Program-made: the position numbers and the translations under genes
Notes under the pieces: model-generated
Database searches by the model: none
Seen by the model: the letters and a program-made list of their open reading frames with translations, nothing else
What the model was told of the DNA's origin: nothing
Shown here: piece after piece, positions 10,153-62,847 of the stretch
How the letters are laid out: each line of letters begins with the position of its first letter
Numbering within the stretch: position 1 is the first letter of the stretch
Origin: Companilactobacillus heilongjiangensis
GTDB lineage: Bacteria; Bacillota; Bacilli; Lactobacillales; Lactobacillaceae
Length of the DNA stretch: 64,000 nt
Direction of reading: 5' to 3'
Assembly: GCF_000831645.3 (NCBI RefSeq)
Contig: NZ_CP012559.1
Coordinates: forward strand, 1,984,001-2,048,000

Positions 10153-10331
10153 TGCCGACTCCGGTTGCCAATGATTTTCGCCTGCTATGAGGACCGGCGT
10201 GAGCCAAGGTCTCACACCTCGCTTTGAAGCCTTGCAAGTTCGGCAAGTCTCCAAAGTCGCCCTGTGGTGTAATAGCTAAAGCCATAACGCCACCTCCATA
10301 GCTGGTGAAATCATTGGCAACCTCCGTCTAG
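10153..10331 (-). repeat. cloverleaf intergenic repeat E1
   Basis: Full copy. The closing stem is GGTTGCCAATGATTT / AAATCATTGGCAACC (15 bp perfect). In the forward sense hairpin P2 is GGCGTTATGGC / GCTATTACACC. The junction pair is A:T (CACAGGG with GTCCTCA). P4 carries GTGAG/CTCAC where most copies have CGAG/CTCG, a compensatory change. Its TGCCG end points to the pcrA start. It forms an inverted pair with E2. Confidence 0.9.
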
Positions 10332-10483
10332 AGTTTTGGTTAACTCCAAATTTATCATTCTTAGGCGACTACTTTCCTCAAGCATCCCTACAACTGAATA
10401 ATTAAATTTACGCCTTTAATAAACAATACGGAACAAAATTCAATTATCTAAATATTTTTCAAAATTAAATATCCTTACCCACC

Positions 10484-10521
10484 TAAAAAATCTCAACTGA
10501 AAAAATTCAGTTGAGATTTTC
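10484..10521 (-). terminator. bidirectional terminator in the pcrA-purB gap
   Basis: TCTCAACTGA (10491-10500) pairs with TCAGTTGAGA (10507-10516), flanked by A-run and T-run. It lies beyond repeat E2 as seen from purB, so E2 would be part of the purB 3'-UTR. Confidence 0.75.
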
Positions 10522-10599
10522 TTATTATCATTATTAAATCCACACTACCTATCGACCAGAATATCAGTCCAATCAAATAAATCCAAATCAACCAATACC

Positions 10600-10792
10600 C
10601 TAGCCGGAGGGTTCGAGGGAGTGAGTCAGCAGTGAGAAGTGTCGTTAGGACGGTGGTTTCCCGTTCTTACAACACTAGGACGACTTTTGAGACTCGCGGT
10701 TTGTGCGAGGCTCAAAATCGAGGGTCGAGACCGCCCTTTGGCTCGAGCCGGTCCTCACAGCAGACTCAACTCCCTTGAAACCTCCGGCGGCA
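10600..10792 (+). repeat. cloverleaf intergenic repeat E2
   Basis: Full copy, the most diverged in its arms: GAGGGAGTGAGTC / GACTCAACTCCC is imperfect, and P2 is GTGTCGTTAGGACGG / CCGTTCTTACAACAC. The junction pair is A:T. Its TGCCG end stops 5 bp before the purB stop codon. It pairs in inverted orientation with E1, the two enclosing 268 bp of AT-rich sequence. Confidence 0.88.
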
Positions 10793-10797
10793 GCTTA

Positions 10798-12093
10798 TTA
10801 TTCTAGTCCAACACGCTTAAATATTTCGTCAACGTGACGTAAGTGCCAGTGGTAATCGAATGCATCGTCTAAATCTTTGTCTGATAGCTTATCGGTTACT
10901 CTAGAATCATTTTCAAGCATTGTTCTGAAGTCTTTCTTTTCATCCCAAGCTTTGGCAGTAAATGGTTGCACGATATCATAAGCTTGTTCACGTGAATAGC
11001 CAGCTTCAACTAACTTCAACAAGACACGTTGTGAGAAGATCAATCCGTGTGTCAAATTCATGTCTTCAATCATCTTGTCAGGGAATACTGTTAGATCCTT
11101 AGTGATCTTAGTAAATCTGCGTAAGATGTAATCCAACAATTCAGTTGTGTCTGGAATGATAATTCTTTCAGCAGAACTGTGTGAAATGTCTCGTTCATGC
11201 CACAATGGCACATCTTCCAAGGCTGTGAATGCATGTCCTCTGATCACACGAGCCAAACCAGTTACGTTTTCTGAACCGATTGGGTTACGTTTGTGAGGCA
11301 TGGCTGATGAACCTTTTTGTCCAGCAGCGAAGAATTCTTCAGCTTCACGGACTTCAGTTCTTTGTAAGTGACGTACTTCGAGTGCGAAACGTTCAATTGA
11401 TGTAGCAATCAATGCCATTGTTTGAATGTATTCAGCATGTAAGTCACGTGGTAAAACTTGTGTTGAAATTTCTTGGGCACGGATGCCTAGTTTATCACAA
11501 ACAAATTTTTCCACATCAGTTGGAACATTGGCATAACTACCAACGGCACCACTGATTTTACCAGCTTCAACGCCTTTAGCAGCATGGTCGAAACGTTCGA
11601 TATCACGTTTGATTTCAGAATACCAGTTAGCTAAAACTAGTCCGAAAGTTGTAGGTTCAGCGTGAACACCGTGAGTTCTACCAATCATAACAGTATCTTT
11701 GTACTTCAAAGCTTTCTCACCGACTACCTTGAGAAATTCATTCAAATCTTCACGAATAATATCATTAGCCTGTTTCATCAAGTATCCATAGGCTGTATCA
11801 ACGACATCAGTTGATGTTAATCCAAAGTGGACCCACTTCTTCTCTGGTCCCAAGTATCTGGAAACATCTCTTGTAAAAGCAACCACGTCATGTTTTGTTT
11901 CTTTTTCGATTTCAGCAATCTCTGAAACATCAAACTTAGCGTTTTGAGCAATTAACTTAGCATCTTCAGCAGGGATTTCTCCTTCTTTGCTCCATCCTTC
12001 AACGGCCGCAATTTCTACTTCGAGCCAAGCTTGAAATCTGTTTTGGTCTGTCCAAATTGGTTTCATCTGTTCAGTTACATATCTATCAATCAT
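10798..12093 (-). CDS. purB: adenylosuccinate lyase
   Basis: 431 aa, full length. It cleaves SAICAR in purine synthesis and adenylosuccinate in AMP synthesis, releasing fumarate. The fumarase/aspartase signature [11 protein letters not shown] is at residues 261-271 and the general-acid histidine is His141 (TRTHG-like [13 protein letters not shown]). It begins three bases after the stop of the purK-like gene, so the two are one unit. The mRNA probably runs through repeat E2 to the terminator near 10500. Confidence 0.96.
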
Positions 12094-12096
12094 GAA

Positions 12097-13227
12097 TTAT
12101 TCTACTCTCCAAATATTAGTTGTTAGGATATCATTTTTTAATTCTTCGACATCGTCTGAGAAAATTGAAATATAACCGACATCCCGGTCGGCTTGATCCT
12201 TAGCTTTAAATCCGGTGTAATAATTAAATTTCCACTGGGCCTTTTCCTGGAGTAAATCCAAACTCTGTGGCAAGTTACCTTCAATAATTTTCAAGGTAGC
12301 CGCGTTGACCATTGGAAAAATCTCGGGAATTGGCCAGTCACAAATAGCTCTGATATGTAATTCAAATTGCGAAATGCCAGTTGCCTCTGGATAAACATTA
12401 GCTGAATAATTGATTCCTGGAAAGATTCGTTTGACGTACAAGACCCCGGATTGAGATAGGATGAAACCTATGCCAAAAATTCCCACGTAGTTAATATTTT
12501 CAGCTACCATCAAGGCAACTCGTTGCATTTCTGCTTCTACATCTGGATCATTCTTCTTATAAATAAAAGAACTCATCAAATGCGTACCATCATAAATCTC
12601 TTTGATCATTGGAAAAGTATGGATCTTTTGGTCCTTACTCTTGCTGATCATGATTGAATACTCAGTCTTAGTCTCAATCCACGCTTCAAGAATGTAAGTT
12701 CCATCTTGGAGTAACTTCTGCACACGTTCAACATCGTTATCGTTATAAAGAATATGACGTTTCAAAATCGTTTGGTTCTTTTGAATCGGCTTTAAAATAC
12801 ATGGGAAACCAATTTCTTCGACCGCTCTTTTGATATCATCTACCGTTACGATTGAAAAAAATGGTGGCACATTAATATTTAAATCATTCAAGAAGGTTCT
12901 CTCGATATAACGATCTTGAGCAATTGTTAACAAGTCAGCACCTTGAGCAACGTTGAAACTCTTAGCCAATTCCTTTAACAAACTGCTGTCAAAATTCTCG
13001 TCCATATACAAAAGAAGGTCACTTCTATGGCCCAATTCACTTAGATTCTCGATGTTTTCCAACTGACCGACTAAAAAGCTGTCAGCAGCCTGTGTCGCAA
13101 TATCCTTCTCTTCATCGGTTAAAAGCATGGTTCTAAAGCCCATTCTCTTAGCTTCCAATTCAAAAATATATGTTTCACTACCGCCACCAATTATGCCTAA
13201 TGTCTTACCGGGCGCAATAAAAGTCAT
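12097..13227 (-). CDS. PurK-like ATP-grasp protein, divergent and probably not a normal PurK
   Basis: 376 aa, the size of 5-(carboxyamino)imidazole ribonucleotide synthase, with the PurK start (PGKTLGIIGGG) and ATP-grasp layout. Key PurK blocks are changed. The canonical GGGQLGRM reads GGGSETYIFE. The glycine-rich loop after FPCILK (normally RRGGYDGKGQ) reads PIQKNQTILK. The metal-binding region usually like VNEIAPRPHNSGH reads VKRIFPGINYSAN. SQFELHIRAIC is kept. No purE is adjacent. It sits between xpt and purB, so a purine link is likely, but I infer that normal carboxylation activity is lost or altered. Confidence 0.75.
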   Translation of the reverse strand: MTFIAPGKTLGIIGGGSETYIFELEAKRMGFRTMLLTDEEKDIATQAADSFLVGQLENIENLSELGHRSDLLLYMDENFDSSLLKELAKSFNVAQGADLLTIAQDRYIERTFLNDLNINVPPFFSIVTVDDIKRAVEEIGFPCILKPIQKNQTILKRHILYNDNDVERVQKLLQDGTYILEAWIETKTEYSIMISKSKDQKIHTFPMIKEIYDGTHLMSSFIYKKNDPDVEAEMQRVALMVAENINYVGIFGIGFILSQSGVLYVKRIFPGINYSANVYPEATGISQFELHIRAICDWPIPEIFPMVNAATLKIIEGNLPQSLDLLQEKAQWKFNYYTGFKAKDQADRDVGYISIFSDDVEELKNDILTTNIWRVE

Positions 13228-13246
13228 AATTCCACCTTCTTAATTA

Positions 13247-13858
<612 letters not shown>

Positions 13859-13882
13859 TTAGAGTCTATCATACTTTGATTT

Positions 13883-14530
13883 TCACTTGATACCTTCATC
13901 GTATTTTTTCAGATTATATTTTTGAATAACCCGAATAATTTTGTTTGTGTAACCAGGATCAGTCGCATATCCATCAGTTTGTAAAGCCACTGCCGCATCA
14001 ATATAATTCTTCGATTGGATAACTTGCCTGTACTGTTGCGAATTCCAGGTCGTACCATCAACTAGCAATTTTGTATGGTCTTTCATCGATTCACGAAAAT
14101 CCGAATAAACTCGAAAACGTCCATTGATAGTTATCCACTGACCATTGGTGTATTCTTTCGTCTGTAAAACTTTCGTATTGGAAGGGTCTTCACCCTTGAT
14201 ACCAAAGTAATTGTTGTACTGACTAGCAAGTGAACTAGTACCCCAGTCGCTCTCCAAAATTGCTTGAGCAATCGTGATACTAGGTAAAACTCCATATTGT
14301 CTACCCAATTCAACTGCATACGGCGATACTTTTTTGATGAATTGACTGTGGTCTTGTTGGACCATTTCAACCTTTGACTCACTCTGATACTGGACATATC
14401 TTCGATAGCCAAAGAAGCTGACGACAAACACTGCGACAATCGCTATTAAAATAATAGTTGTCCGATTATTCTTGTTACTTTTGCGCCGATAGTTAGTTCG
14501 ACGTGATTTGTATCTCCTCTTTTGTGGCAA
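13883..14530 (-). CDS. membrane-anchored glucosaminidase (GH73, LytG-like)
   Basis: 215 aa. A very basic N-terminus (KRRYKSRRTNYRRKSNK) leads to one membrane segment (about residues 24-40), after which the protein lies outside. The GH73 domain spans about 70-212, with catalytic Glu93 in AILESDWGTSSLASQYNNYF. Such enzymes cut peptidoglycan glycan chains between GlcNAc and MurNAc. The domain is of minimal size with no added wall-binding repeats. Repeat E3 begins 30 bp upstream of the start, so the mRNA may run through it. Family assignment is firm; the exact bond cut is inferred. Confidence 0.88.
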   Translation of the reverse strand: MPQKRRYKSRRTNYRRKSNKNNRTTIILIAIVAVFVVSFFGYRRYVQYQSESKVEMVQQDHSQFIKKVSPYAVELGRQYGVLPSITIAQAILESDWGTSSLASQYNNYFGIKGEDPSNTKVLQTKEYTNGQWITINGRFRVYSDFRESMKDHTKLLVDGTTWNSQQYRQVIQSKNYIDAAVALQTDGYATDPGYTNKIIRVIQKYNLKKYDEGIK

Positions 14531-14560
14531 TTGATCTATCCTTTGTAAGTTTAATCTGCC

Positions 14561-14745
14561 TGCCGTCTCCAGAGCAGAGAAGTATTTCGCCTGCTGTGCG
14601 GAACGATTCGAGCCATAGTTCGGTCTCGAACCTCGGTTTGAAGCCTTGCAAGTTCAGCAAGTCTCCAAACTCGCCCGGTGGTGTAACGGCCAAAGCCGTA
14701 ACGCCACTTCCACTGCTGGTGAATACTTCTCTGCTCTTCCGACTA
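14561..14745 (-). repeat. cloverleaf intergenic repeat E3
   Basis: Full copy of the 'GAAGAG' flavour. Closing stem AGAGCAGAGAAGTATT / AATACTTCTCTGCTCT is 16 bp perfect; P2 is GGCGTTACGGC / GCCGTTACACC. The junction pair is C:G. Its TGCCG end faces the glucosaminidase start 30 bp away. It forms an inverted pair with E4. Confidence 0.92.
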
Positions 14746-14853
14746 ATTTAACTGATATATAAATAGTTTAATGAATTAAAACAAAATCATTATCTGACTT
14801 TTCAAACCTCAATAATAATTTGAAACAGAAACTACCAAAACATAGCACATAAA

Positions 14854-15005
14854 TTAGTTGGAGGGGATAAGAACATTTACACCACCAGGCGTGTTTGGCG
14901 ACTTAACGCTTTTGGGTAAGCCTTCAAACCGAAGTTCGAGACCGTTTCTTGGCTCGGACTGGTCCGCATAGCAGGTAAACATTCTTATCCCCGTAAATGA
15001 AACGG
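14854..15005 (+). repeat. cloverleaf intergenic repeat E4, lacking most of hairpin P2
   Basis: Shortened copy. The closing stem GGGGATAAGAACATTTAC / GTAAACATTCTTATCCCC is kept with two mismatches, and P3 and P4 are present. The 5' half of P2 is missing, leaving only ACACCACCAGGCG. The far end is also eroded (CCCCGTAAATGAAACGG). It lies downstream of the MFS gene and pairs with E3. Confidence 0.85.
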
Positions 15006-15092
15006 AAAACCTTTAGTTAATAAAACTAATTATAGCCGATATACTTGAAGTTTTTGTGATTTAAAACGGAATTTTAACAATTGCTAAAAGTT

Positions 15093-16424: not shown

Positions 16425-16604
16425 GAGTTGGAAGAGCTGAGAGCATTCATCAGCAGCGAAAGTGGCGTTATTGCTTTAGCAATTACACCACCGGGCGTGT
16501 TGGAGACTTGCCGGTTTTGCAAGGCTTCAACCGAGGTTCGAGACCGCACTTCGGCTCGAACCGTACCGCGCAGCAGATGAATGCTCTCAGCTCTGGAAAC
16601 GGCC
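16425..16604 (+). repeat. cloverleaf intergenic repeat E5
   Basis: Full copy, unpaired. Closing stem GAGCTGAGAGCATTCATC / GATGAATGCTCTCAGCTC is 18 bp perfect; P2 is GGCGTTATTGC / GCAATTACACC. The junction pair is C:G. It lies between the MFS gene and the cspA terminator. Confidence 0.92.
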
Positions 16605-16670: not shown

Positions 16671-16704
16671 AAAAAAAAAAGCTAACTCTGCGAGTTAGCT
16701 TTTA
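16671..16704 (-). terminator. cspA terminator
   Basis: AGCTAACTC (16680-16688) pairs with GAGTTAGCT (16692-16700), followed on the minus strand by a run of about ten T. Confidence 0.88.
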
Positions 16705-16723
16705 TCAAACTTATTTTTTATAA

Positions 16724-16924
16724 TTAAGCTTTGTTAACGTTTGAAGCTTGTGGGCCACGATCTGAATCTTCGATATCAAATGTAACTGCTTGGCCTTCTT
16801 CAAGAGTCTTGTAACCGTCGCCTTGGATAGCTGAGAAATGTACGAATACATCACTACCATCTTCGCGAGTAATAAAACCATAACCTTTTTCTGCGTTAAA
16901 CCATTTAACTGTTCCGTTTTCCAT
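16724..16924 (-). CDS. cspA: cold-shock protein, CspA family
   Basis: 66 aa, the usual CSD size. RNP1 (KGYGFI, residues 13-18) and RNP2 (VFVHF, 26-30) are intact, so it should bind single-stranded RNA as a chaperone. AGGAG precedes the ATG. A TTGAAA-17-TAATAT promoter gives a 5'-UTR of about 118 nt, long as in cold-regulated csp genes. The gene is monocistronic, with its own terminator. Confidence 0.96.
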
Positions 16925-17000
16925 GAACTTTTCCTCCTGATAAGAAAATATTTTTTGTGCATTATTTCGTGGTACATCATGGAAGAAAGTCTAAAATACG

Positions 17001-17077
17001 AAACATTCAAACCATTCGAACCATTCACCATTCAAAAATACAACTACTATATTAACATGCTTGATCAATTATTTCAA
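17001..17077 (-). promoter_or_regulatory. cspA promoter and repeat-bearing 5'-UTR
   Basis: On the minus strand TTGAAA (17072-17077), a 17-bp spacer and TAATAT (17049-17054) form a good sigma-A promoter. The leader then contains four copies of GAATG(GT), read as CATTC on the plus strand at 17004-17034. Leader length and repeats suggest post-transcriptional control. Confidence 0.7.
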
Positions 17078-18594: not shown

Positions 18595-18776
18595 TGCCGC
18601 CGGATGGTGCCAGAGATTTTCACCCGCTATGAGGACCAGGTCGAGCCAAGGTCTCGCCCCTCGATTTGAAGCCTTGCACAAACCGCAAGTCTCCAAAGTC
18701 GCCCTGTGGAGTAAGGACTAAAGTCCTAACTCCACCTTCATAGCAGGCAAAAAATCACTAGGCAACCTACGACTAA
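18595..18776 (-). repeat. cloverleaf intergenic repeat E6
   Basis: Full copy. The closing stem is imperfect (TGCC..GATTTT with AAAATC..GGCA). P2 is near perfect (GGAGTTAGGAC / GTCCTTACTCC). Junction pair A:T. The TGCCG end faces the rbsD promoter. Forms an inverted pair with E7. Confidence 0.88.
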
Positions 18777-18933: not shown

Positions 18934-19116
18934 TAGTCGGAAGAGATGAGAATATTAACCCGCTGTGGGTGTGGTGTAAGAGCTTTAGCTCTTACACCAC
19001 CGGGCGAGTTTGGAGCCTTACCGTTTTTTGGTAAGGCTTCAAATCGAGGTTCGAGACCGCCTTTTGGCTCGATCCGGTCCGCATAGCGAGTTAATATTCT
19101 CATCTCTGGAGACGGT
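18934..19116 (+). repeat. cloverleaf intergenic repeat E7, in the leader of the DUF6056-like gene
   Basis: Full copy. Closing stem AGAGATGAGAATATTAAC / GTTAATATTCTCATCTCT is 18 bp perfect; P2 GGTGTAAGAGC / GCTCTTACACC is perfect. Junction pair C:G. It ends 31 bp before the ATG of the next gene, too close for a promoter between them, so it probably lies in that gene's 5'-UTR. Confidence 0.93.
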
Positions 19117-40555: not shown

Positions 40556-40614
40556 CATAACTCCCTTATAAATTTATATTAATGGCCAGAGGTTTTTGAG
40601 GGTTGCCGCTTTCG

Positions 40615-40785
40615 GTTTCGAATGATTCCGCCTACTGTGGGACCGGCTCGAGCCATAGTGCGGTCTCGACCCTCGCTTTTGAGCCGAAAACCACGTCTCA
40701 AAAACGTCCTGTGCTGTAAGAACGGAAAACCGCCGTCCTAACACCACTACCACTGCTGGCTCCATCATTCGAAACCGGAAGCTAA
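40615..40785 (-). repeat. cloverleaf intergenic repeat E8
   Basis: Full copy, unpaired. Closing stem CGGTTTCGAATGATT / CATCATTCGAAACCG, 14 bp; P2 GGACGGCGG / CCGTTCTTAC with extra pairs. The junction pair is A opposite C, one of the few copies that break the rule. Lies between pncB and the GT4 gene; the remaining part of the 40559-40896 gap shows nothing else. Confidence 0.85.
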
Positions 40786-40896
40786 GATACTGGTTATATC
40801 AGATTATTATTTCGATAGTCTGCAACACGAACAACCATACAAAACCTTCCAAGGCAAAGCCCAAATCAAACTCTGGTTAACAATCTATATTTTACA

Positions 40897-41973
40897 TTAA
40901 TCTGCATTTAAAGTCGCTTCGTATCCATCGTTTACTTTATGAGCTAATTCTTCGATAGAATAGTTGTCTCGAACCTCTTGATAAAGTGCCAATCCTTTTT
41001 GATCAAGGTTGCCATCACGCCACATTGAGTGGGCATCGTTCAAGGCTGCAATCAGTCCTTGTTCATCGCCAGAATCGACTAACCAACCAGTATCGTCATT
41101 GATAACTCTATCGGTAGCACCGACATTTGTCGCAATAACTGGTTTTCCATAAGCAGCTGATTCAAGGTAAACTGTTGGCAAACTTTCTGACTTCGAAGTT
41201 AGGACGGAAACATCACATTCTTGATAATAGTCACCGGTATTTTCACGGAAACCAACGAAATCGACTTTATCTTTGATACCTAATTCTGAAACTAACTTAC
41301 GTAAATCGTCCATCAATGGACCATCGCCGACTAGTGTCAAGCGGTAATTGAACTTAACTTTGCTCAAGGCTTCAAGCAATAAACGATGATTCTTGACCTC
41401 AACCAAACGTGCTACTTCCAGCAAACTGAATGTTGGTTGGCGATTGAATCGCGGATTGATTCCAGAAAAATCGATGGCATTGAAAACTTCAAATGTTTTG
41501 CTTGATCTGATTTTCAATGATTCAAAATATTCTTCCAAATCAGGGTTCATGTAGAAAAGTGAATCTGCGCTTTTTAGAGCGTGTAGATTTAACTTGAGCA
41601 TAACTTTACCTTTGATCCCTGAAAAGTCGATACGGGGGTCAGAATGGACTGTTATGACCCATTTAGCATTGATTTTCTTTCTAATCAAAGACACGATATA
41701 GTTAGCACGTGGACCATGTGTATGCACAATATCGAAGTGATTATTGTTAATATAGTTTGTTAATGGTTTTAGAATCGATAAATCAAAACGTTGTTTTTGT
41801 TTCATTACCGACACGCTCAAGCCATTTTCACGCGCCATCTTTGAAACTGGACCTTCTTGAAAAGTTAATAACGTACTCTTCTCACCAGTTAACTTTTGAC
41901 CTTTCATCAGGTTAACAATATATGTACGAGCTCCACCGTCTTCATTGCCGGCATTAATATGTAAAACCCTCAT
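40897..41973 (-). CDS. family 4 glycosyltransferase
   Basis: 358 aa from the ATG at 41973, where GAGGTG precedes and the protein begins MRVLHINAGNEDGGARTYIV, a typical GT4 start; the longer frame overlaps the divergent tagA leader. GT-B fold: N-terminal acceptor domain, then VARLVEVKNHRLLLEAL and the sugar-nucleotide EX7E-type region (SKSESLPTVYLESAAYGKPV). Retaining transfer from a nucleotide sugar on the cytoplasmic side is expected. It is divergent from tagA, suggesting joint teichoic-acid or polysaccharide work. Confidence 0.85.
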   Translation of the reverse strand: MRVLHINAGNEDGGARTYIVNLMKGQKLTGEKSTLLTFQEGPVSKMARENGLSVSVMKQKQRFDLSILKPLTNYINNNHFDIVHTHGPRANYIVSLIRKKINAKWVITVHSDPRIDFSGIKGKVMLKLNLHALKSADSLFYMNPDLEEYFESLKIRSSKTFEVFNAIDFSGINPRFNRQPTFSLLEVARLVEVKNHRLLLEALSKVKFNYRLTLVGDGPLMDDLRKLVSELGIKDKVDFVGFRENTGDYYQECDVSVLTSKSESLPTVYLESAAYGKPVIATNVGATDRVINDDTGWLVDSGDEQGLIAALNDAHSMWRDGNLDQKGLALYQEVRDNYSIEELAHKVNDGYEATLNAD

Positions 41974-44450: not shown

Positions 44451-44574
44451 AAGTGACTCCCAGTTAAAAATTTAAAAAACATATCAGGTTATATCTTACC
44501 TTAAATCGAATTTTAAAGAAATTAATTATCCCAATTAAAATTCAAAACCTGTTTTATTGTGTACTTCCGCTTCC

Positions 44575-44744
44575 GGTTGCCAGAGAATTTCGCCTGCTGT
44601 GAGGACCGGTTCGAGCCATAGTACGGTCTCGAACCTCGCTTTTGAACCGAAAACCACGTTTCAAAAGTCGTCTTGTGGAGTAAGTGCTAAAGCACTTACT
44701 CCACTTTCACTGCTGGTGAATTCTCTGGCAACCTCCAGCTATAG
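44575..44744 (-). repeat. cloverleaf intergenic repeat E9
   Basis: Full copy. Closing stem GGTTGCCAGAGAATT / AATTCTCTGGCAACC is 15 bp perfect; P2 GGAGTAAGTGC / GCACTTACTCC is perfect. Junction pair A:T. The TGCCG-type end faces the ligase-like gene start. Inverted pair with E10. Confidence 0.92.
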
Positions 44745-44915: not shown

Positions 44916-45100
44916 CTAGCCGGAGGTTGTCGATGAAATGGAGTATCCCATGGAGGTGGCGTTATGGCTTTAGCCATTACACCACAGGGCGACTTTGGAG
45001 ACTTGCCGAACTCTGGCAAGGCTTCAAAGCGAGACACGAGACCTTGGCTCGAGTCGGTCCTCATGGTAGACTGCCATTTCATCGACAACCGTAGGCGGCA
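44916..45100 (+). repeat. cloverleaf intergenic repeat E10
   Basis: Full copy. Closing stem GGTTGTCGATGAAATGG / CCATTTCATCGACAACC is 17 bp perfect; P2 GGCGTTATGGC / GCCATTACACC. Junction pair A:T. The TGCCG end stops 15 bp before the gntR stop codon. Confidence 0.92.
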
Positions 45101-46026: not shown

Positions 46027-46109
46027 TGGAGGGGAGTGGATTCGAACCACCGAACCCGAAGGAGCGGATTTACAGTCCGCCGCGTTTAGCCAGACTTCGC
46101 TACCCCTCC
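46027..46109 (-). tRNA. tRNA-Tyr (GTA)
   Basis: 83 nt, class II with variable arm. Acceptor GGAGGGG pairs with CCCCTCC. Anticodon stem GCGGA/TCCGC, loop CTGTAAA, anticodon GTA. CCA is not encoded. First gene of the two-tRNA unit. Confidence 0.95.
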
Positions 46110-46201
46110 ATGTGTTTAACACATGTCTCATTCGACTTAATAATATTACCGAAAATCCAGATTCATTTCAAGTGATTTTATAAACTTTTTTTATTTGTTC
46201 A

Positions 46202-46351
46202 CTTCCGCCGGAGGATGCCGGTAATTTTTCGCCCGATGTGAGGACCGGTTCGAGCCGAAGCCCACGTCTCAAAAGTCGTCCTGTAATATAAGGACTAGCG
46301 TCCTCATATTACCTTCACTACTGGTGAAAATTACCGGCATCCTCCGGCTAG
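46202..46351 (-). repeat. cloverleaf intergenic repeat E11, lacking most of P3
   Basis: Shortened copy: closing stem GGAGGATGCCGGTAATTTT / AAAATTACCGGCATCCTCC is 19 bp perfect and P2 GTAATATGAGGAC / GTCCTTATATTAC is kept, but P3 and part of P4 are gone. Junction pair A:T. The deletion spares the outer stem. Inverted pair with E12. Confidence 0.87.
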
Positions 46352-46614
46352 GTTTATTAAAAGTGAGCTTTAATCAGCTTAATACTCATATTCGTTTGAA
46401 TTGGTCTAATTTATTCGTCATCAAAATAACCAAATATTTAATCCCCATCAGGTTTAAAAAATTAATCGAATCATTTCATATAAATATTTTTAAAATATCA
46501 AAGGTAACTGAATTTTTAATTCCAATTTTCCAAGAATTAATTCGATGCAGTTTTAAATAATCCCCCTTAAATATTCAGAATCATTAAACATACAATATTA
46601 ACCAAAAATACCAG

Positions 46615-46796
46615 AGCCTCCGGTTGCGAGGGATGGAGTACGCTGTGGAGGTGGCGTTATGGCTTTAGCCATTACACCACAGGGCGACTTTTGAGATTCG
46701 CGTACTCTGCGAAGCTCAAAATCGAGGTTCGAGACCGCCTTTTGGCTCGAACCGGTCCTCATAGCGTAACTCCATCCCTCGCAACCGGAGGCGGCA
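46615..46796 (+). repeat. cloverleaf intergenic repeat E12
   Basis: Full copy with the longest perfect closing stem, 23 bp (includes GGTTGCGAGGGATGGAGT / ACTCCATCCCTCGCAACC). P2 GGCGTTATGGC / GCCATTACACC. Junction pair A:T. Lies after dtpT. The 263 bp between E11 and E12 is AT-rich with no gene supported. Confidence 0.92.
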
Positions 46797-46809
46797 TCCT
46801 TAAAAGAAA

Positions 46810-46845
46810 CAAAAAAAGACCGCAGACAACAAAGTCTACAATCTT
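46810..46845 (-). terminator. dtpT terminator
   Basis: AGACCGCAGAC pairs with GTCTACAATCT (some mismatches), followed on the minus strand by T7. Confidence 0.65.
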
Positions 46846-46857
46846 TAAATAATTTTT

Positions 46858-48333
46858 TTAATTAACACCTTGCATCATCTTTTTAATCCATGGAACACAA
46901 AGGATTAACAATACGGCTGCAACTAATGTAACGATACCTGTAACACCGAAGAACATCATTTCGTTATGTGGATCTCCAGGTACGAATAACTTAACGATTT
47001 GAGCATTAGCAGCTTGTCCAGCTGAATCAGCTAGGAACCACATACTCATCATTTGACCAGAGAAAGCCTTTGGAGCCAATTTAGTTGTGGCTGACAATCC
47101 AACTGGTGAGATTAACATTTCACCAATTTCGATGATACCCCAACTTAGAACTAACCAAAGTGGACTAACTTTTCCACTAGGACTTAATCCAATTAAAGGA
47201 ATGATCAAAACAAAGTATGAAATTGCTGTGGCAACTAATCCCATCCAGAATTTAGATGGTGATGATGGTTGTCTCTTGCTCAACTTAATCCATAACCAAG
47301 CAAAGAATGGTGTATAGATAATGATGAAGAATGGGTTAAGCATTTGGAATTGTGGTGCTGATAAATGCAATCCAGCGAAGTTTAGTTGTGTTTGTTCTGC
47401 AGCAAACAATGCCAAAACAACTGAACCTTGTTCTTCAATTGCCCAGAAAATCATAGCGGCAATGAACAATGGAATATATGCAAAAACACGTGATCTTTCA
47501 ACTTTAGTAACTTTTTTACTCGTTAGCATCATGATGAAGTAACCAACAGGCAAACCGATACCCAAGATACTGATGATCGTTATAACGTTGTCAATTGTAA
47601 AGGCGCGTGCAAAAATCAATGCCACAACAATGATAACAATTGCTACAACTACGATTGAAACTCGTTTGATAAATCTACCACGTTCAGCATCCGTAATTGG
47701 ATCTGGAGCGTGCAAACTTGATTCTGGCAAGTACTTACGTCCGTCCCACCAGTAAACGATCAAACCAATGAACATACCGATAGCAGCTAATGAGAAACCA
47801 GCGTGGAAATTAAATGCGTTACTCATACTGTTAACAGCTTGTGGAGCAAATAGTGAACCCAAGTTGATACCCATGACATAAATACTGAAGCCGGAGTCAC
47901 GTCTTGGATCTCCCTCAGAATACAATCCACCAACCATTTCGGATACGTTTGGTTTCAAAAGTCCAGTACCAATAACAATTAGTCCAATAGATAGGAACAA
48001 TCCAGTTTCACCAATTGGAAGCGATAAGACGATGTGACCAAACATGATCAACACACCACCCCAGAAGACTGTTCTTCTGGCTCCCAAAAGTCTATCACTG
48101 ATAAATCCACCTAGGACACTTGACATATAAACAAGTGAACCATAGATAGACATAACAGAAGCAGCAGTGGTACGGTCCATCCCTAGACCACCCTTAGTTA
48201 CTGCATAGTACATGTAGAAAAGTAAAATGGCACGCATACCGTAGTAACTGAATCTTTCCCAAAATTCAGTTAGGAATAATGTACGCAAGCCTGTCGGTTG
48301 TCCGAAGAAACCTCGATCTTTTTTCTCGTCCAT
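46858..48333 (-). CDS. dtpT: proton-dependent di-/tripeptide transporter, POT family
   Basis: 491 aa with 14 membrane segments, as in bacterial POT proteins. The opening GFFGQPTGLRTLFLTEFWER carries the ExxER motif for proton coupling, and GGFISDRLLGARRTVFWGG is the first PTR2 signature; a second is near FSIYVMGINLGSLF. It imports small peptides, a main nitrogen source for lactobacilli. It is monocistronic between E12 and glpK. Confidence 0.93.
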   Translation of the reverse strand: MDEKKDRGFFGQPTGLRTLFLTEFWERFSYYGMRAILLFYMYYAVTKGGLGMDRTTAASVMSIYGSLVYMSSVLGGFISDRLLGARRTVFWGGVLIMFGHIVLSLPIGETGLFLSIGLIVIGTGLLKPNVSEMVGGLYSEGDPRRDSGFSIYVMGINLGSLFAPQAVNSMSNAFNFHAGFSLAAIGMFIGLIVYWWDGRKYLPESSLHAPDPITDAERGRFIKRVSIVVVAIVIIVVALIFARAFTIDNVITIISILGIGLPVGYFIMMLTSKKVTKVERSRVFAYIPLFIAAMIFWAIEEQGSVVLALFAAEQTQLNFAGLHLSAPQFQMLNPFFIIIYTPFFAWLWIKLSKRQPSSPSKFWMGLVATAISYFVLIIPLIGLSPSGKVSPLWLVLSWGIIEIGEMLISPVGLSATTKLAPKAFSGQMMSMWFLADSAGQAANAQIVKLFVPGDPHNEMMFFGVTGIVTLVAAVLLILCVPWIKKMMQGVN

Positions 48334-54213: not shown

Positions 54214-54402
54214 TGCCGCCTACAGTTGTCAGTAATTTTTTACCAGCTATGAGGACCGGTCCGAGCCAAAGTGCGGTCTCGAACCTCGGTTTGAAGCCTC
54301 ACCAAAAACCGGTAAGTCTCCAAACACGCCCTGTGGTGTAAGAGCTAAAGTTCTAACGCCACCTCCACAGCAGGTAAAAATCACTGACAACTTCCGGCTA
54401 AG
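54214..54402 (-). repeat. cloverleaf intergenic repeat E13
   Basis: Full copy. Closing stem GTTGTCAGT-ATTTTT / AAAAAT-ACTGACAAC with one mismatch; P2 GGCGTTAGAAC / GCTCTTACACC, partly mismatched. Junction pair A:T. It lies 40 bp upstream of yfhO. Between it and the small gene at 54760 there is AT-rich sequence and one terminator. Confidence 0.88.
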
Positions 54403-54960: not shown

Positions 54961-55145
54961 TTTCCGTCTACAGGGATGAGAATATATACCTGCTATGCGG
55001 ACCGGCCCGAGCCACAGTTCGGTCTCGGACCTCGGTTTGAAGCCTTACCAAAGTTCGGTAAGTCTCCAAACTCGCCCGGTGGTGTAACGGCTAAAGCCGT
55101 AACGCCACTGTCACAGCCGGTATATATTCTCATCCCTTCCGACTC
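54961..55145 (-). repeat. cloverleaf intergenic repeat E14
   Basis: Full copy. Closing stem GGGATGAGAATATATACC / GGTATATATTCTCATCCC is 18 bp perfect; P2 GGCGTTACGGC / GCCGTTACACC. Junction pair C:G. Same orientation as E13, so this pair is not inverted. It lies between the small gene and the NTF2-like gene. Confidence 0.92.
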
Positions 55146-56035: not shown

Positions 56036-56220
56036 TAGTCGGAGGTTGCGAGAAAATTTACCCGCTATGGAGGTGGAGTTAGGACTAAAGTCCTAACTCC
56101 ACAGGGCGTGTTTGGAGACTTACCGGTCTTTGGTAAGGCTTCAAACCGAGGTTCGAGACCGCACTTTGGCTCGGGCCAGTCCTCATAGCAGGTGAATTTT
56201 TCTCGCAACCGGAGACGGCA
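56036..56220 (+). repeat. cloverleaf intergenic repeat E15
   Basis: Full copy. Closing stem GGTTGCGAGAAAATT / AATTTTTCTCGCAACC with one bulged base; P2 GGAGTTAGGAC / GTCCTAACTCC is perfect. Junction pair A:T. Its base (GTCGGAGG / CCGGAGAC) mixes the two end flavours. Lies downstream of nox. Confidence 0.92.
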
Positions 56221-57944: not shown

Positions 57945-57950
57945 GTAATC

Positions 57951-58285
57951 GTGAAAGAGGTACAGATATGATCAAATGCATTCCTTCCTTTTTAACTCTT
58001 AATAAGGTTGCGATACACATCCTCATATCGTTAACCTAAAGCTTACTCGCCATTTAGGTGAGAATTGCCCCCCTCAATCAATTCCCACTTAGATACGTTA
58101 TCCCATTACAAATAATTTACTTTGAATGCTTTCGTTAATTTAATTAACAAATCCCTCTCTATTTGACAAATATGGAAACCTCACAAGCATTCATATCTTT
58201 ACCCCTGACACTACTGGTAATGTCGCTACACATTCTTGTAGCAAAGACAAGTTCATCCCCCCAAGATGAGCTTGTTTTTTTTTTT
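57951..58285 (+). ncRNA. candidate small RNA L1
   Basis: About 335 nt from promoter to terminator, paralogous to L2. A Shine-Dalgarno-like GAAAGAGG precedes an ATG (57968) with a 23-codon frame, but alignment with L2 needs indels that break the frame, so RNA rather than peptide is conserved. Shared blocks: a small hairpin CGATA/TATCG; a stem-loop GAATTG/CAATTC with loop containing CCCCCTCAAT; GAATGCTT pairing with AAGCATTC further down; ATCCCTCTC and TTACCCCTGACACTACTGG. C-rich loops can pair with ribosome sites. The terminator is CAAGTTCATC / GATGAGCTTG plus T11 (58247-58285). Confidence 0.6.
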
Positions 58286-58297
58286 GCTTTTTTCTCT

Positions 58298-58481
58298 TGC
58301 CGCTGGAGTATGACAGTAATATTAGTCCGCTATGGGGACCAAGCCGAGCCAAAGTACGGTCTCGAACCTCGATTTTGAACTTCGCACAGTTCGCGAATTT
58401 CAAAACTCGCCCCGTGGCGTTAAGGCTTCAGCCTTAACGCCACCTGCACAGCGGACTATATTACTGTCATCCTCCGGCTAG
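58298..58481 (-). repeat. cloverleaf intergenic repeat E16
   Basis: Full copy. Closing stem ATGACAGTAATAT-AGTCCGC / GCGGACT-ATATTACTGTCAT (one bulge); P2 GGCGTTAAGGC / GCCTTAACGCC is perfect. The junction pair is G:C (CACGGGG with GTCCCCA), the only such copy, and still paired. Starts just after the L1 terminator. Inverted pair with E17. Confidence 0.92.
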
Positions 58482-58744: not shown

Positions 58745-58939
58745 TTAGTCGGAAGAGCTGGGAAATATTTGTGTGCCGTGGTAGTGGTATAAGTACGGGA
58801 GTTTCTCCCGTACTTATACCACCGGGCGTGTTTGGAGACTTACCGGCCTTTGGTAAGGCTTCAAACCGAGGTTCGAGACCGCTCTTTGGCTCGGGCCGTT
58901 CCGCACAGCTTGTAAATATTTCCCAGCTCTGGAGACGGT
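58745..58939 (+). repeat. cloverleaf intergenic repeat E17
   Basis: Full copy with the longest P2: GGTATAAGTACGGGAG / CTCCCGTACTTATACC, 16 bp perfect. Closing stem AGCTGGGAAATATTT / AAATATTTCCCAGCT. Junction pair C:G. Lies ~65 bp before the L2 promoter. Confidence 0.92.
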
Positions 58940-59005
58940 CTCCTTCAATACCCCACCTTCAAAAAAGCACTCCATATTTATAAAAAATATTTTTTCTATT
59001 ATGAA

Positions 59006-59034
59006 ATGACATGTTTAAACACATATGGTATATT
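59006..59034 (+). promoter_or_regulatory. L2 promoter with TGTTTAAACA palindrome
   Basis: ATGACA (59006-59011), 17-bp spacer, TATATT (59029-59034). The palindrome TGTTTAAACA (59012-59021) has the same place in the spacer as in L1. Confidence 0.7.
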
Positions 59035-59040
59035 AGTAAC

Positions 59041-59382
59041 TGTGAAAGGGGTAAAGATATGAACAAAAAAACATTCCTTCTTTTAATTCTTAATGAAGGT
59101 TGCGATACATCCTCATATCGTTACCAATAAAGCTTACTCGCATTCTGAAGTGAAGTTGCCCCCTCAATCAGCTTCACTTCCCACCCTCAAATGCGTATCA
59201 TAAGCATCCCTTTAAAATAATAATTTACTTTGAATGCTTTCATTAATTAGCGAATCCCTCTCTCTATTTGATAAATATGGAAACCTCACAAGCATTCATA
59301 TCTTACCCCTGACACTACTGGTAATGCCGTTACATATATGGTATAAAACAAGCCTGCCCTCCTCAGACAGACTTGTTTTTTT
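59041..59382 (+). ncRNA. candidate small RNA L2
   Basis: About 342 nt, paralogue of L1. GAAAGGGG precedes the ATG at 59059, with a 23-codon frame (MNKKTFLLLILNEGC, then DTSSYRYQ) unrelated to that of L1 beyond its start. The stem around the C-rich loop is GAAGTGAAG / CTTCACTTC, 9 bp perfect, where L1 has a different but also paired sequence. The CCCCT of the loop could pair with the molecule's own AGGGG. The terminator is ACAAGCCTG / CAGACAGACTTGT plus T7 (59347-59382). The target is unknown. Confidence 0.6.
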
Positions 59383-59401
59383 GTTCGCATAAATATAACC
59401 T

Positions 59402-59456
59402 TCTCCAGTTGTCAGCAATATATTTCAAAATATTTAATCCACTGCAACAACTCCAA
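59402..59456. repeat. possible remnant of a cloverleaf repeat end
   Basis: CTCCAGTTGTCAGCAATAT resembles the outer arm of E13, and CTGCAACAACTCC shortly after resembles the opposite arm. Nothing of P2-P4 is between them. Weak. Confidence 0.25.
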
Positions 59457-59460
59457 CCAA

Positions 59461-59647
59461 CTAGTCAAAAGAGCTGAGAGTATTCACCCGCTGTGGGTGT
59501 GGCGTTATGGCTTTAGCCATTACACCACCGGGCGTGTTTGGAGACTTACCGGTCTTTGGTAAGGCTTCAAAACCGAGGTTCGAGACCGCCCTTCGGCTCG
59601 GACCGGTCCACATAGCAGGTGAAATACTCTCAGCTCTTTTGACGGCA
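59461..59647 (+). repeat. cloverleaf intergenic repeat E18
   Basis: Full copy. Closing stem AAAAGAGCTGAGAGTATT / AATACTCTCAGCTCTTTT is 18 bp perfect; the base has AAAA:TTTT where relatives have GGAA, so both strands changed together. P2 GGCGTTATGGC / GCCATTACACC. Junction position is C opposite A, not paired. Downstream of the FMN-reductase operon. Confidence 0.92.
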
Positions 59648-59649
59648 CA

Positions 59650-59691
59650 CAAAAAACGTTGATTTCATTTTCATGATTTCAACGTTTTTTT
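59650..59691 (-). terminator. terminator of the flavinylation operon
   Basis: AAAACGTTGA pairs with TCAACGTTTT, extended by TCAT/ATGA, with T6 following on the minus strand. Confidence 0.85.
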
Positions 59692-59692
59692 A

Positions 59693-60949
59693 TTAGTGCT
59701 TTGATGCACTTGATGTTGCATCTACTTTAACTTCAGGCTTAGCAGCTTCTGGTTCAGCTTTATCTGATGCACCAGTTGTAGCGTCAACTTCCGGCTTTTC
59801 TGAAGCACCTGTTGTTGCATCTACCTTGGCATCAGGATCTTTAACTAGTTTTTGACCAGTTTCTTGGAGGTATTGGTCAACGATTGGCTTAACATCAACA
59901 GCCCATTCATTAACACCCTTGTAATTGCCTTCTTCATCGTGCATTGCTTTGTAGTAATGCATAACGTGTGTTGTATCATCGCCACCGGGTACAGGCATTG
60001 AAACTAAATCAGTCTTGCCTGTTCTTAACGTGTTGATAACTTGCTTAACATGCTTGATAACACGAGCAATCTTTGGATGAACTTTGTCCAACGCATCCCC
60101 AACTTGAGCAGGTGTACGTTTGGCTAACATCTTTTCGGTTGGTACGGCATTGTTGTAGTAAATGAATTGATTATTTTCGTCAACATAAGTCAATTCGACT
60201 GGAGATGTCTTGAGGAAATAATTCAATTGGTTAACTGTCAATAATCCGCTATCCAACTTGACGTATGTGTCGCCTTCAACAGCATTAACTTTCTTAGCAG
60301 CTTGATCCAACCAGTCGTCAGCGTTCATATCAACGCCCTTAACAGTTGTATCAGTACCATTTTTAGCGCTCAAATCTTCTTCTTCATAATCAGTTGTTTG
60401 ACCAATCATGTTGATAACTTTGGCAAAACGAATGAAGTTTTGAAGAGTCGATTGTAGAAAATCAACGGTTCTTTGATCCTTGAGATCATCGTTTTCGTCA
60501 AAGGCACTCTTAACGTCACCCAATAAGAATTCGTTACCAGGCAAAACGATAGCATTGACGCCCGGTGCTTCGAGAATTTGTCTCAAGTGCAATTGAGCAC
60601 GTGATGAACCTTGAGTATGGTATGAAGCTCCCACAATCATGACAGGTTTGCCATCAAAAGGATGAACTTCATATGAAAGCCATTCGATTACATTCTTCAA
60701 AGCAGCAGGTACAGTGTGGTTGTGCTCTGGTGTAGCAATAATTACACCGTCAGCGCCTTTTATTTTTTTACATAAATTTTGAATTACATCACTATTAGTC
60801 TGGTCGTCGTCTTGGCTAAACATTGGTACATCGTTAATATCCAATACATCAATGTCAACTAGACCCTCAAAATGCTTGGCGATAAATTTTAGTAATGTTC
60901 GGTTGTATGATTGATCAGCAATTGATCCTGCAATACCAACTAGTTTCAT
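59693..60949 (-). CDS. NAD(P)H-dependent FMN reductase fused to a PAS domain, with three ApbE flavin-acceptor motifs in its tail
   Basis: 418 aa from the ATG at 60949 (GGGGGA upstream). Residues 1-180 are an NADPH-dependent FMN reductase flavodoxin fold ([44 protein letters not shown]). Residues ~248-362 match the PAS domain of DUF438-type proteins ([33 protein letters not shown]). The tail 363-418 is disordered and holds DATTGAS at 377-383 and 389-395 and DATSSAS at 410-416, which fit the ApbE target D-x-x-(S/T)-(G/S)-A-(S/T). With apbE in the same unit, covalent FMN at Ser383, Ser395 and perhaps Ser416 is predicted. No signal peptide: cytosolic. Confidence 0.85.
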
Positions 60950-60959
60950 GTTATTCCCC

Positions 60960-61568
60960 CTAATCTTTATCCCATGAAAATTGCTCGGCCTTTTGCTTGT
61001 TAACAGCATTGGCGTTGTTCAATTGTTTCGAAATATTAACAAATTGTAAGAAGTCTTTGAATAGACCATCTAATTGTTTAACTTCATTAGCATCTTTTAA
61101 GTTTTCATTCTCGTCAAAAGCTTGTAGTGAGTGGCCCAACAAGAATTCTGAACTTGGCATAATGCGAGCTTTCAATTCTGGTGAGTCCAAAATTTGTCTC
61201 AACTGCGATTGAGCACGTGATGAACCAAGTGAGCCGTATGAAGCACCTGTAATCATAACTGGCTTGTCAACGAATGGATGGATGCCATACGACAACCAGG
61301 CTAATGCACTCGTTAAAGCGGCAGTGATTGAGTGGTCATATTCAGGTGTGGCGATAATTACCCCATCAGCTGCCTCAATTTTGGTAGCAATGTCTTTAGC
61401 TGCTTGAGGTACAAATCTGTCAGCACTCTTCTTAAAAATTGGTAAACCTTTAATTTCAACTAATTCAATTTCGGCTTGATTCTGAAAATGTTTTTGCATG
61501 TATTGCAACAATTCGCGGTTGGTTGATTTGTTGGAGTTGGATCCAACAATAGCAATAAATTTATTCAT
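60960..61568 (-). CDS. NADPH-dependent FMN reductase
   Basis: 202 aa from the ATG at 61568 (GGGATG nine bases upstream); a second ATG four codons earlier lacks a spaced ribosome site. Flavodoxin-like fold with [36 protein letters not shown] and [20 protein letters not shown]. It resembles the first ~180 residues of the next gene but lacks PAS and tail, so one may be a duplicate of the other. It should move electrons from NAD(P)H to FMN and may partner the tailed protein. Ten bases separate the two genes. Confidence 0.88.
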
Positions 61569-61635
61569 ATCATTAATCATCCCATTTATATTTTAGTGTC
61601 TTGGTCATTGTAAATTTTTTCACGAAAGAAATCAA

Positions 61636-62565
61636 TTACATCAAAGTGAATTTTCCTTGTAGACCACTAGTTTCCACAGCCTGTAAGTCCTTGGTAATGA
61701 AAACTGCCTCAATCCCAGGTTGCGCTTCAATCAATGCTTTCCCTTGTTCAATCCCTTGATAGAAACCAATTGTCGACCAAATTTCGCCATCAATCGATTT
61801 ATCACTAATTATCGTGACACTGGCAAGGTTATTCTTGATTGGATAGCCTGTTTTTGAGTCGAACATATGGTGATATTCGTGACCATCAATAATTAATTTA
61901 CGTTCATAAATACCTGATGTTCCAATTGATTTAGCGGAAGTTTTGACAGCTCCGAGTGAGACGTCTCTAGGCTTGATTGGATTTTGCACTCCAACCGTCC
62001 ACAACTCATCGGCATGTTGACTTGGTCCCACTAATAAGACGTTGCCACCTAGGTCAATAATGCCTGTTTTAACGCCACGTTCCAACCATAATTGCTTAAT
62101 TTGGTCAGCAATGTACCCTTTGGCAATTCCGCCGAGATCGATTTCCATACCTTTATCAAGTAAGAAAACCGTCTGCTTTTCATCGTCCAATTGAATCCGT
62201 TCTGGATCGATGATTTTCAAACGTTCCTTGATATCAGCATCACTAGGTCGGTTGGCACCTTTGAAACCAATTTTCCAAAGTTTCACCAATGGTCCAATGG
62301 CAACGTTAAAACCAAGGTGTTTACGACTGACTAATACAGCTCGTTTAATCAGGCCATAAGTATCCTCAGGTACTGCTACAGCCTTGATTCCAGCATTGTG
62401 ATTGATTGACATGACTTCTGATTTATCACGGTTAACAGTCAACTTATCTTCAAAACGTTGAATCAATTCATAGCCAGCATCCAAATCTTTCTCATCAGCA
62501 GGTGCAGCCACAGACAAATTTATCACCGTTCCTAAGGCATAGTAGTTCTTATTGATTAGGCTCAT
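61636..62565 (-). CDS. apbE: FAD:protein FMN transferase (ApbE), cytosolic form
   Basis: 309 aa. It transfers FMN from FAD to Ser/Thr of the target motif with Mg2+. Hallmarks: the IDLGGIAKGYIADQI block, the GGNVLLVG strand and EYHHMFDSKTGYPIKN. Unlike many ApbE proteins it has no signal peptide or lipobox (begins MSLINKNYYALGTVIN), so it works inside the cell, where the tailed FMN reductase is. It is 67 nt upstream of the FMN reductase pair in the same direction. Its own substrate in this window is thus likely that reductase. Confidence 0.92.
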   Translation of the reverse strand: MSLINKNYYALGTVINLSVAAPADEKDLDAGYELIQRFEDKLTVNRDKSEVMSINHNAGIKAVAVPEDTYGLIKRAVLVSRKHLGFNVAIGPLVKLWKIGFKGANRPSDADIKERLKIIDPERIQLDDEKQTVFLLDKGMEIDLGGIAKGYIADQIKQLWLERGVKTGIIDLGGNVLLVGPSQHADELWTVGVQNPIKPRDVSLGAVKTSAKSIGTSGIYERKLIIDGHEYHHMFDSKTGYPIKNNLASVTIISDKSIDGEIWSTIGFYQGIEQGKALIEAQPGIEAVFITKDLQAVETSGLQGKFTLM

Positions 62566-62662
62566 CAGGATTTCCTCAATTCATTTAAAAATATTTCATA
62601 ATCGAAAATTACTTGAATATAAATACATTTGAGCACTATTACATTCAAGTATTACCAATTAC

Positions 62663-62847
62663 CTAGTCGGAAGAGCTGGGAAGTATTCACCAGCAGTGGA
62701 AGTGGCATTATTGCTTTAGCAATTACACCACCGGGCTAGTTTGGAGACTCGCGGGTTGTGCGAGGCTTCAAACCGAGGGACGAGACCGAACTTTGGCTCG
62801 GCCCGGTCCGCACAGCAGGCGAAATACTTCTCAGCTCTGGAGACGGA
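62663..62847 (+). repeat. cloverleaf intergenic repeat E19
   Basis: Full copy. Closing stem AGAGCTGGGAAGTATT / AATACTTCTCAGCTCT, 16 bp with one G.T; P2 GGCATTATTGC / GCAATTACACC. Junction pair C:G. It sits in the divergent gap between apbE and the fumarate-reductase-like gene. Confidence 0.92.

Follow-up and report, generated by a model that had tools for sequence, protein, structure and literature searches.

The 64,000-nucleotide stretch of the Companilactobacillus heilongjiangensis chromosome analyzed here (contig NZ_CP012559.1, positions 1,984,001 to 2,048,000; hereafter, the window) carries 19 related elements, E1 to E19, that share a predicted cloverleaf fold. These elements are probably, for the most part, old copies of a large Lactobacillales family of miniature inverted-repeat transposable elements (MITEs) bearing a cloverleaf that is under selection on one strand. 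A young unit of this family is delimited by terminal inverted repeats (TIRs), makes 7- to 9-bp target duplications, and contains a single subterminal cloverleaf of ∼180 nt, the 3′ side of which points to the unit end; some units, as well as most close neighbors, comprise two outward-facing modules. The outward-reading strand appears to be kept foldable by selection, as a functional RNA would be.

Identification and copy number of the elements

The window was searched with an iterated nhmmer profile and, separately, with a covariance model that covers a 140-position core and is based on 17 of the 19 elements (the shortened copies E4 and E11 were left out). The last nhmmer round returned 27 matches: 19 elements that are complete or almost so, located between positions 10163 and 62838, and 8 short opposite-strand cross-hits. 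The covariance model recovered the identical 19 elements with scores of 55 to 154 bits, along with 5 partial opposite-strand matches below 26 bits. The same 19 elements had been listed in the initial annotation of this DNA, and the stem sequences quoted there are present in the window. In the predicted fold, each full copy of the ∼180-nt module has a long closing stem, P1, which encloses P2 and an inner junction of P3 and P4. The divergent pairing of the elements (12 of the 19 are arranged as six divergent pairs), their spread across the genome, and their membership in mobile units, all described below, were absent from that annotation.

The C. heilongjiangensis genome consists of one contig of 2.79 Mb. 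In a 464-kb sample of it, comprising the window and 20 evenly spread 20-kb stretches, the covariance model produced 101 matches at E values of up to 1e-5, or 100 after the removal of one match cut by a stretch end. Extrapolation from these 100 matches gives a family of about 600 copies which, at 180 nt each, would occupy roughly 4% of the chromosome of this free-living lactobacillus, all of it accounted for by one unnamed structured repeat. When the whole genome was searched and the best 150 of 1491 candidates were scored, all 150 were matches; these 150 copies show no clear bias with respect to replication strand. As had been noted for the elements of the window, the copies lie mostly outside genes (92 of the 100 have no overlap of more than 30 nt with crude open reading frame [ORF] calls, and 8 do) and are richer in G+C than their surroundings, the cores having 52% G+C compared with 32% in other intergenic DNA and 38% in the window.

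Covariation and sequence constraint

The statement that the two arms of each stem change together, and that the fold is accordingly maintained, withstood examination on larger sets of copies. For all 19 elements, RNAalifold predicted 57 pairs, 33 of which show two-sided changes. In an alignment of 101 copies from the window and 400 kb of the same genome, two-sided changes were found at 39 of the 51 pairs (27.5 ± 1.5 in shuffles) and in 648 cells (180 ± 10 in shuffles), and the covariation score was 0.40, compared with 0.16 for shuffled alignments and 0.05 to 0.06 for slid partners, a control that, unlike the shuffles, keeps the relatedness of the copies. The covariation thus exceeds both the shuffled and the slid controls, a property looked for in structured noncoding RNAs. 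As for the closing stem P1, part of which lies outside the covariance model, 92 of the 100 copies pair at least 12 of the 14 bases with their own partner arm, compared with 12 of 100 when the arm is taken from another copy; the 95 P1 5′ arms compared include 74 distinct sequences.

Comparison of young units gives, in both subfamilies (9 and 10 units), 92% identity for the cloverleaf and 70 to 72% for the spacer, with the cloverleaf the better conserved part in 35 of the 36 comparisons in one subfamily and 44 of the 45 in the other; these comparisons, which share copies, cover cloverleaf-bearing units of 230 to 360 bp, with one deletion copy from Companilactobacillus huachuanensis (genome G011) dropped. 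The conserved DNA around the module is confined to an A-rich tract and TAGYC on the upstream side and a downstream GRCGGCA motif (74 and 61 anchorable copies with scores above 80 bits).

Strand kept folded

Folded RNA tolerates G-U but not A-C oppositions, whereas a cruciform, or the repair of palindromes, is blind to strand. Strand-neutral counts were obtained by comparing G-U with A-C mismatches at pairs predicted on both strands. These counts replaced an earlier ratio of 353:63, for which the structure had been predicted on the sense strand and which was hence biased. At the both-strand pairs, the G-U:A-C ratio is 52:13 in C. heilongjiangensis, 11:6 in G011, 16:5 in the related genome G034, and 29:6 in other genera; in P1, where the pairing was picked by Watson-Crick matches only, it is 28:3. 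This excess of G-U indicates that one strand is kept folded, and, judging from the sequence comparisons, that strand is the outward-reading one, the asymmetry being clear, if not uniform. Of the two forms offered in the initial annotation, structured RNA and DNA cruciform, the latter is disfavored, because a cruciform treats both strands alike and G-U nevertheless exceeds A-C. Structured RNA, or one strand folded as single-stranded DNA, appears to fit better than a cruciform; the counts cannot separate those two.

Terminal repeats, target duplications, and empty sites

Terminal inverted repeats are clear in two young subfamilies and unrecognizable in most old pairs. The TIR of the young C. heilongjiangensis subfamily, ACGCATGGTGCTAGTTGA, has 75 matches in that genome (up to 3 mismatches), with 3 for the reversed-pattern control; the TIR of the G011 subfamily, CTAAAGGTTGAAAG, has 546 matches in G011 (up to 2 mismatches), with 10 for the control. 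Closed units measure 101 to 488 bp (288 to 339 bp in 20 of 29), and the longer TIR-to-TIR distances seen in six regions of G011 and G034 represent separate units. Exact target duplications of 7 to 9 bp, mostly 8 bp, flank 12 of the 29 closed units and 5 of 8 further ones (17 of 37 altogether). With the length fixed at 8 bp, at least 7 positions match in 38% and 19% of the cases, compared with 5.5% and 1% for shuffled flanks. In the young units, the cloverleaf lies near one end with its 3′ side outward. The units are thus short and devoid of a transposase gene of their own, are bounded by TIRs, and have duplications of near-constant size, the properties by which MITEs are recognized.

Related chromosomes lack many of the insertions. 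Several Companilactobacillus relatives have short element-free gaps at the E8, E9/E10, E13, E15, and E19 loci, and the pairs E3/E4 and E6/E7 are absent from G011; some of these sites hold a long gap or a different element in further relatives.

Distribution among genomes

The patchy distribution of the family supports its assignment to the MITEs. At E values of up to 1e-4, matches were found in 27 of the 36 Companilactobacillus genomes. First-look candidates were most numerous in the four related genomes G000, G011, G023, and G034 (935 to 1502 each); the best 90 candidates were scored in these and in G012 and G015. The covariance-model search of Lactobacillaceae that had been suggested in the initial annotation detected matches in 77 of 301 genomes and 12 of 40 genera, including Levilactobacillus brevis (L150). 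In the sample of the order Lactobacillales, matches were found in 28 of 395 genomes. Among these, eight genomes of one other genus have one match each among the best eight candidates scored per genome, and G610, from another family, again has a divergent pair. The class-level sample of 398 genomes contained a single matching genome, that of C. heilongjiangensis itself, and none elsewhere, and a blastn search of plasmid and phage records with one element (E18) gave no match. With relatives in 12 sampled Lactobacillaceae genera, the family provides, within one genome, hundreds of naturally varied versions of a single RNA-like fold for structural work, and it is a possible marker for strain typing.

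Outward-facing pairs and the proposed role in cis

Neighboring copies separated by at most 600 bp are arranged in minus-then-plus order, with their 5′ sides facing each other and their 3′ sides outward, in 63 of 66 cases. Divergent neighbors account for 29 of 31 cases in C. heilongjiangensis, 23 of 24 in other Companilactobacillus genomes, and all 11 in other genera, including one from another family. This count excludes the match cut by a stretch end, 7 of the 36 matches at a transporter locus (L080, and L081, which is from the same species as G011), 8 of a further set of 83 matches that were partial, at an edge, or weak, and five copies located between infB and rbfA. By eye, the young C. heilongjiangensis copies that have a neighbor include 6 in divergent, 3 in same-direction, and 0 in convergent orientation (a weak match in L180 and the duplicate locus L186 were omitted from this tally). 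An autonomous element enclosed by two cloverleaves was sought in five intervals of 600 to 4500 bp between divergent neighbors, none of which fits: by eye, three contain ORFs of at least 150 amino acids that read as ordinary genes, and two lack such ORFs.

This arrangement leads us to propose, tentatively, that the module acts in cis as an RNA. Whichever side it came from, a transcript running into a two-cloverleaf unit would read the antisense module first and the sense module last, so that each read-through mRNA would leave the unit with a folded leader ahead of the next gene. In a Gram-positive host, such a leader could serve as a processing or stabilizing insulator of the downstream mRNA and would reduce the cost of an intergenic insertion. 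With this family, the reason why certain bacterial MITEs retain elaborate folds can be tested directly: the folds might aid movement, or they might soften the effects on neighboring genes.

Several observations weigh against the overall interpretation of the family, beginning with the pairs themselves, which, by eye, often combine different subfamilies. Among the outer flanks of 60 pairs, 2 score at least 14, compared with 1.8% for shuffled partners; with the complementarity hardly above the shuffled level, the idea of general outer inverted repeats for pairs was dropped. The mixed subfamilies and the near-shuffled outer flanks suggest that many pairs may be two insertions. At the E8 locus of G034, there is a two-cloverleaf insert with ends resembling CTAAAGGTTGAAA and with TTAACA common to both sides, so this pair, at least, seems to have transposed together.

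As for mobility, an exact duplication of at least 7 bp is missing from 20 of the 37 closed units, clean duplications occur as well in units that lack a full cloverleaf, and no mobilizing transposase was found among the Y1, ISL3, and IS256 families, the only ones searched. ISL3 and IS256 were rejected as mobilizers, ISL3 being absent from both genomes with young units (G000 and G011) and IS256 from all four genomes searched. With regard to expression, the DNA just upstream of the cloverleaf shows no enrichment of a promoter motif in the 74 and 61 anchorable copies; a promoter immediately upstream of it was discarded as a candidate, since TATAAT-like sites are fewer there than in shuffled sequences (96 versus 134).

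The remaining adverse points concern the strand. At pairs predicted on the antisense strand, the G-U:A-C ratios are 93:84 in C. heilongjiangensis, 11:18 in G011, 18:22 in G034, and 29:6 in other genera; the reversal in G011 and G034 is what the choice of structure on that strand would favor. In C. heilongjiangensis, the union of both predictions with 1-by-1 mismatches gives 240:203, which becomes 240:104 once one invariant A-C position is removed, and one position in P2 opposes the trend with 51 A-C and 1 G-U. All these alignments were fitted to the sense-strand model, and counts from related copies are not independent events, so that the agreement across separate genomes is the stronger argument.

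Alternative explanations

A role of the cloverleaf in transposition itself is possible, though we regard it as doubtful: a transposase would recognize the end of the unit as folded single-stranded DNA or as the RNA made from it, and only foldable copies would be copied. Such a role would account for the subterminal position and fixed orientation of the cloverleaf in young units, for the outward-facing neighbors, and for the stronger conservation of the cloverleaf than of the spacer between young copies, and strand-specific folding fits single-stranded DNA, too. On the other hand, units of 101 to 156 bp without the full cloverleaf (L158, L203, and L234) show exact or near-exact 7- to 9-bp duplications, unless they suffered deletions after insertion, and the terminal repeats and 8-bp duplication differ from the hairpin-ended IS200/IS605 type.

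An unlikely alternative is that the cloverleaf is a trans-acting small RNA that was spread by a transposon or domesticated from one. In its favor are the eight other-genus genomes with one match each. In the five of these that were read (L218 to L222, near positions 5000 to 5650), which belong to another family and have an IF2 that looks streptococcal, the match is antisense to the operon, in the interval separating infB from rbfA. At this fixed site, the copy from one genome shows compensatory changes: two P2 pairs differ on both sides, and an A-C opposition has become a third pair. The A-C in the other four copies would be a G-U on the operon strand, so the cloverleaf strand is not favored there. 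In C. heilongjiangensis, the lack of a promoter signal at the cloverleaf speaks against this explanation, and some 600 copies of broadly one fold would be odd for a single role in trans.

It is more unlikely still that a TIR-type DNA transposon, spread over the Lactobacillales, needs or uses the cloverleaf RNA encoded at its end, this RNA taking part in transposition or in the choice of sites. The sites in question would be those beside terminators and beside other copies, with the 5′ side inward.

We see little chance that the module terminates, or insulates against, transcription that comes into the unit from its surroundings. Immediately 5′ of the module is the conserved A-rich tract, which on the other strand becomes a T-rich, CTARTTTATTTT-like tract following the stem; the strand-neutral counts, however, favor the opposite strand as the folded one.

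Just as improbable is the suggestion, raised in the initial annotation, that the arms are kept matched by hairpin-templated repair of imperfect palindromes with no selection on folding. When 30 of the 31 copies of one subfamily were compared, transversions made up 17 of the 61 two-sided paired cells, which favors templated repair because point mutation needs a mismatch step. Such repair is blind to the sense strand, yet G-U exceeds A-C in all four both-strand sets and by 28:3 in P1, so that repair without selection is disfavored; it may still add to the pattern, the antisense-derived counts being less clear.

REP/REPIN elements are inverted pairs of palindromic units present in high copy number. 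That the present family consists of such elements mobilized by a Y1 (RAYT) transposase is extremely unlikely, despite the inverted pairs, the high copy number, and the TAG motif 5′ of the stem, given the terminal repeats and target duplications, the module size of ∼180 nt versus the 20 to 40 bp given for REPs in the description available (PMC3733652), and a Y1 distribution that does not follow the elements (Y1 is absent from the copy-rich G023 and G034 and present in the match-free G002 and G025).

Comparison with known families

The initial annotation named no family that fits, which holds against Rfam 15 and an open-licence paper library. With the 4227 models of Rfam 15, the window contained only three tRNAs at the gathering score, with no overlap of the elements even at E values of up to 5, and ten related loci gave no match on the elements; searches of the open-licence library brought up no description of such an element from lactobacilli.

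The elements are best described as structured MITEs, for which BOX and bcr1 are the nearest in kind, set apart here by their descriptions only. The pneumococcal BOX, RUP, and SPRITE repeats are described as high-copy non-autonomous repeats, considered parasitic, whose terminal repeats are predicted to pair in the transcript; BOX has a modular boxA-boxB-boxC organization with tandem boxB and a stable RNA fold, and the BOX types of Streptococcus suis have end modules of 115 and 133 nt (PMC3049150). Going by that description, the family shares with BOX its high copy number, non-autonomous nature, terminal repeats, modularity, and stable RNA fold, and differs from it in the four-stem covarying cloverleaf, with P1 around P2 and the inner P3/P4 junction, in the subterminal position of this module in a longer unit, in its frequent outward-facing pairs, and in its occurrence in Lactobacillaceae.

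The Bacillus cereus bcr1 repeats, as described, are MITE-like, intergenic, 147 to 167 bp long, and present in 12 to 31 copies, and their predicted structure is conserved; of the bcr1 to bcr3 copies taken together, about half were found to be transcribed (PMC3446304, PMC2267715). The likeness of bcr1 to bcr3 to the present family lies in the MITE-like character, intergenic position, and conserved predicted structure; going by the same descriptions, they differ in belonging to another order and, for bcr1, in copy number (∼600 here), and the present covariance model matches no other genome among the 398 of the class. Prokaryotic MITEs in general are characterized by an AT-rich body, intergenic position, terminal and direct repeats, and stem-loop transcripts (PMC10969869). 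These have counterparts here, the stem-loop transcripts in the form of a predicted fold; relative to that general description, the distinguishing feature is a G+C-rich cloverleaf inside the unit that appears to be under its own structural constraint.

Individual elements in the window

In each of the six divergent pairs, the left element is on the minus strand and the right one on the plus strand. The first pair consists of E1 (positions 10158 to 10328; 141.8 bits) and E2 (10604 to 10787; 125.9 bits). In the second, E3 (14566 to 14742) has the highest score, 154.3 bits, and E4 (14857 to 14998; 59 bits) is an internally shortened copy that has largely lost P2; the locus is without the pair in both G011 and G034. 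The single element E5 (16428 to 16599, plus strand; 143 bits) is followed by a short ORF, over which there is a sub-threshold match to the cspA thermoregulator on the minus strand (16674 to 17056; 66.8 bits, with a gathering score of 78). The third pair, E6 (18599 to 18771; 132.1 bits) and E7 (18936 to 19113; 138.9 bits), is replaced in G011 by a 215-nt gap.

E8 (40605 to 40785, minus strand; 98.4 bits) is single and lies within the loop of a terminator-like hairpin, which E8 and its 5′ flank (40580 to 40900) split and which is uninterrupted in C. huachuanensis. At this site, 20 of 22 relatives have a gap of 36 to 91 nt, L135 has a long gap, and G034 has the different insert mentioned above. 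The fourth pair is formed by E9 (44568 to 44740; 132.7 bits) and E10 (44919 to 45096; 119.9 bits); the gap at its site measures 61 to 202 nt in 22 of 23 relatives and remains long in G011. The fifth pair comprises E11 (46204 to 46350; 55.4 bits), the other internally shortened copy, beside tRNA genes, and E12 (46614 to 46794; 137.5 bits), which adjoins the 3′ end of a POT-family transporter gene.

This gap between the transporter and the tRNA genes (46109 to 46858 in the window; mostly near positions 11450 to 12600 in L058 to L081 and L133) has the look of a hot spot: divergent pairs of different subfamilies are present there in several Companilactobacillus species, and Companilactobacillus musae (L133) has a terminator only. 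By eye, L063 (11853 to 11981), L067 (11762 to 12473), and L065 (11550 to 12150) have, at the same locus, shorter diverged relatives that apparently lack P4, and those in L065 and L067 form divergent pairs.

E13 (54218 to 54398, minus strand; 145.8 bits) lies in an insert with outer ACTAAAGG/CCTTTAGT repeats, the site of which is a gap of 9 to 22 nt in several relatives. E13 is followed by E14 (54965 to 55144, minus strand; 149.6 bits) and E15 (56036 to 56216, plus strand; 143.8 bits), at whose site the gap is 0 to 10 nt in L064 and L146, which represent one species, and in L063. The sixth pair consists of E16 (58300 to 58480; 132.9 bits) and E17 (58748 to 58936; 125.4 bits), the latter a member of the AGAGCTGGGAAA subfamily with an extended P2. 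As in many pair outer flanks, the one at positions 58240 to 58300 has a terminator-like hairpin with a T-run ∼10 to 25 nt outside the element. The last two elements are E18 (59462 to 59645; 141.3 bits) and the single E19 (62666 to 62844; 144.4 bits), both on the plus strand; the E19 site is a 69- to 71-nt gap without the element in G011, L145, L146, and L147.

Two further loci are of note. In L042 (∼4555 to 4966), the spacer of a divergent pair contains a small ORF, the start of which, by eye, reads MTDKERSSKQIKVSNLSKK. In L230 of C. huachuanensis (953 to 1440), a second small element, which has AGGCTGCTGAAAAACT inverted repeats, splits a cloverleaf unit.

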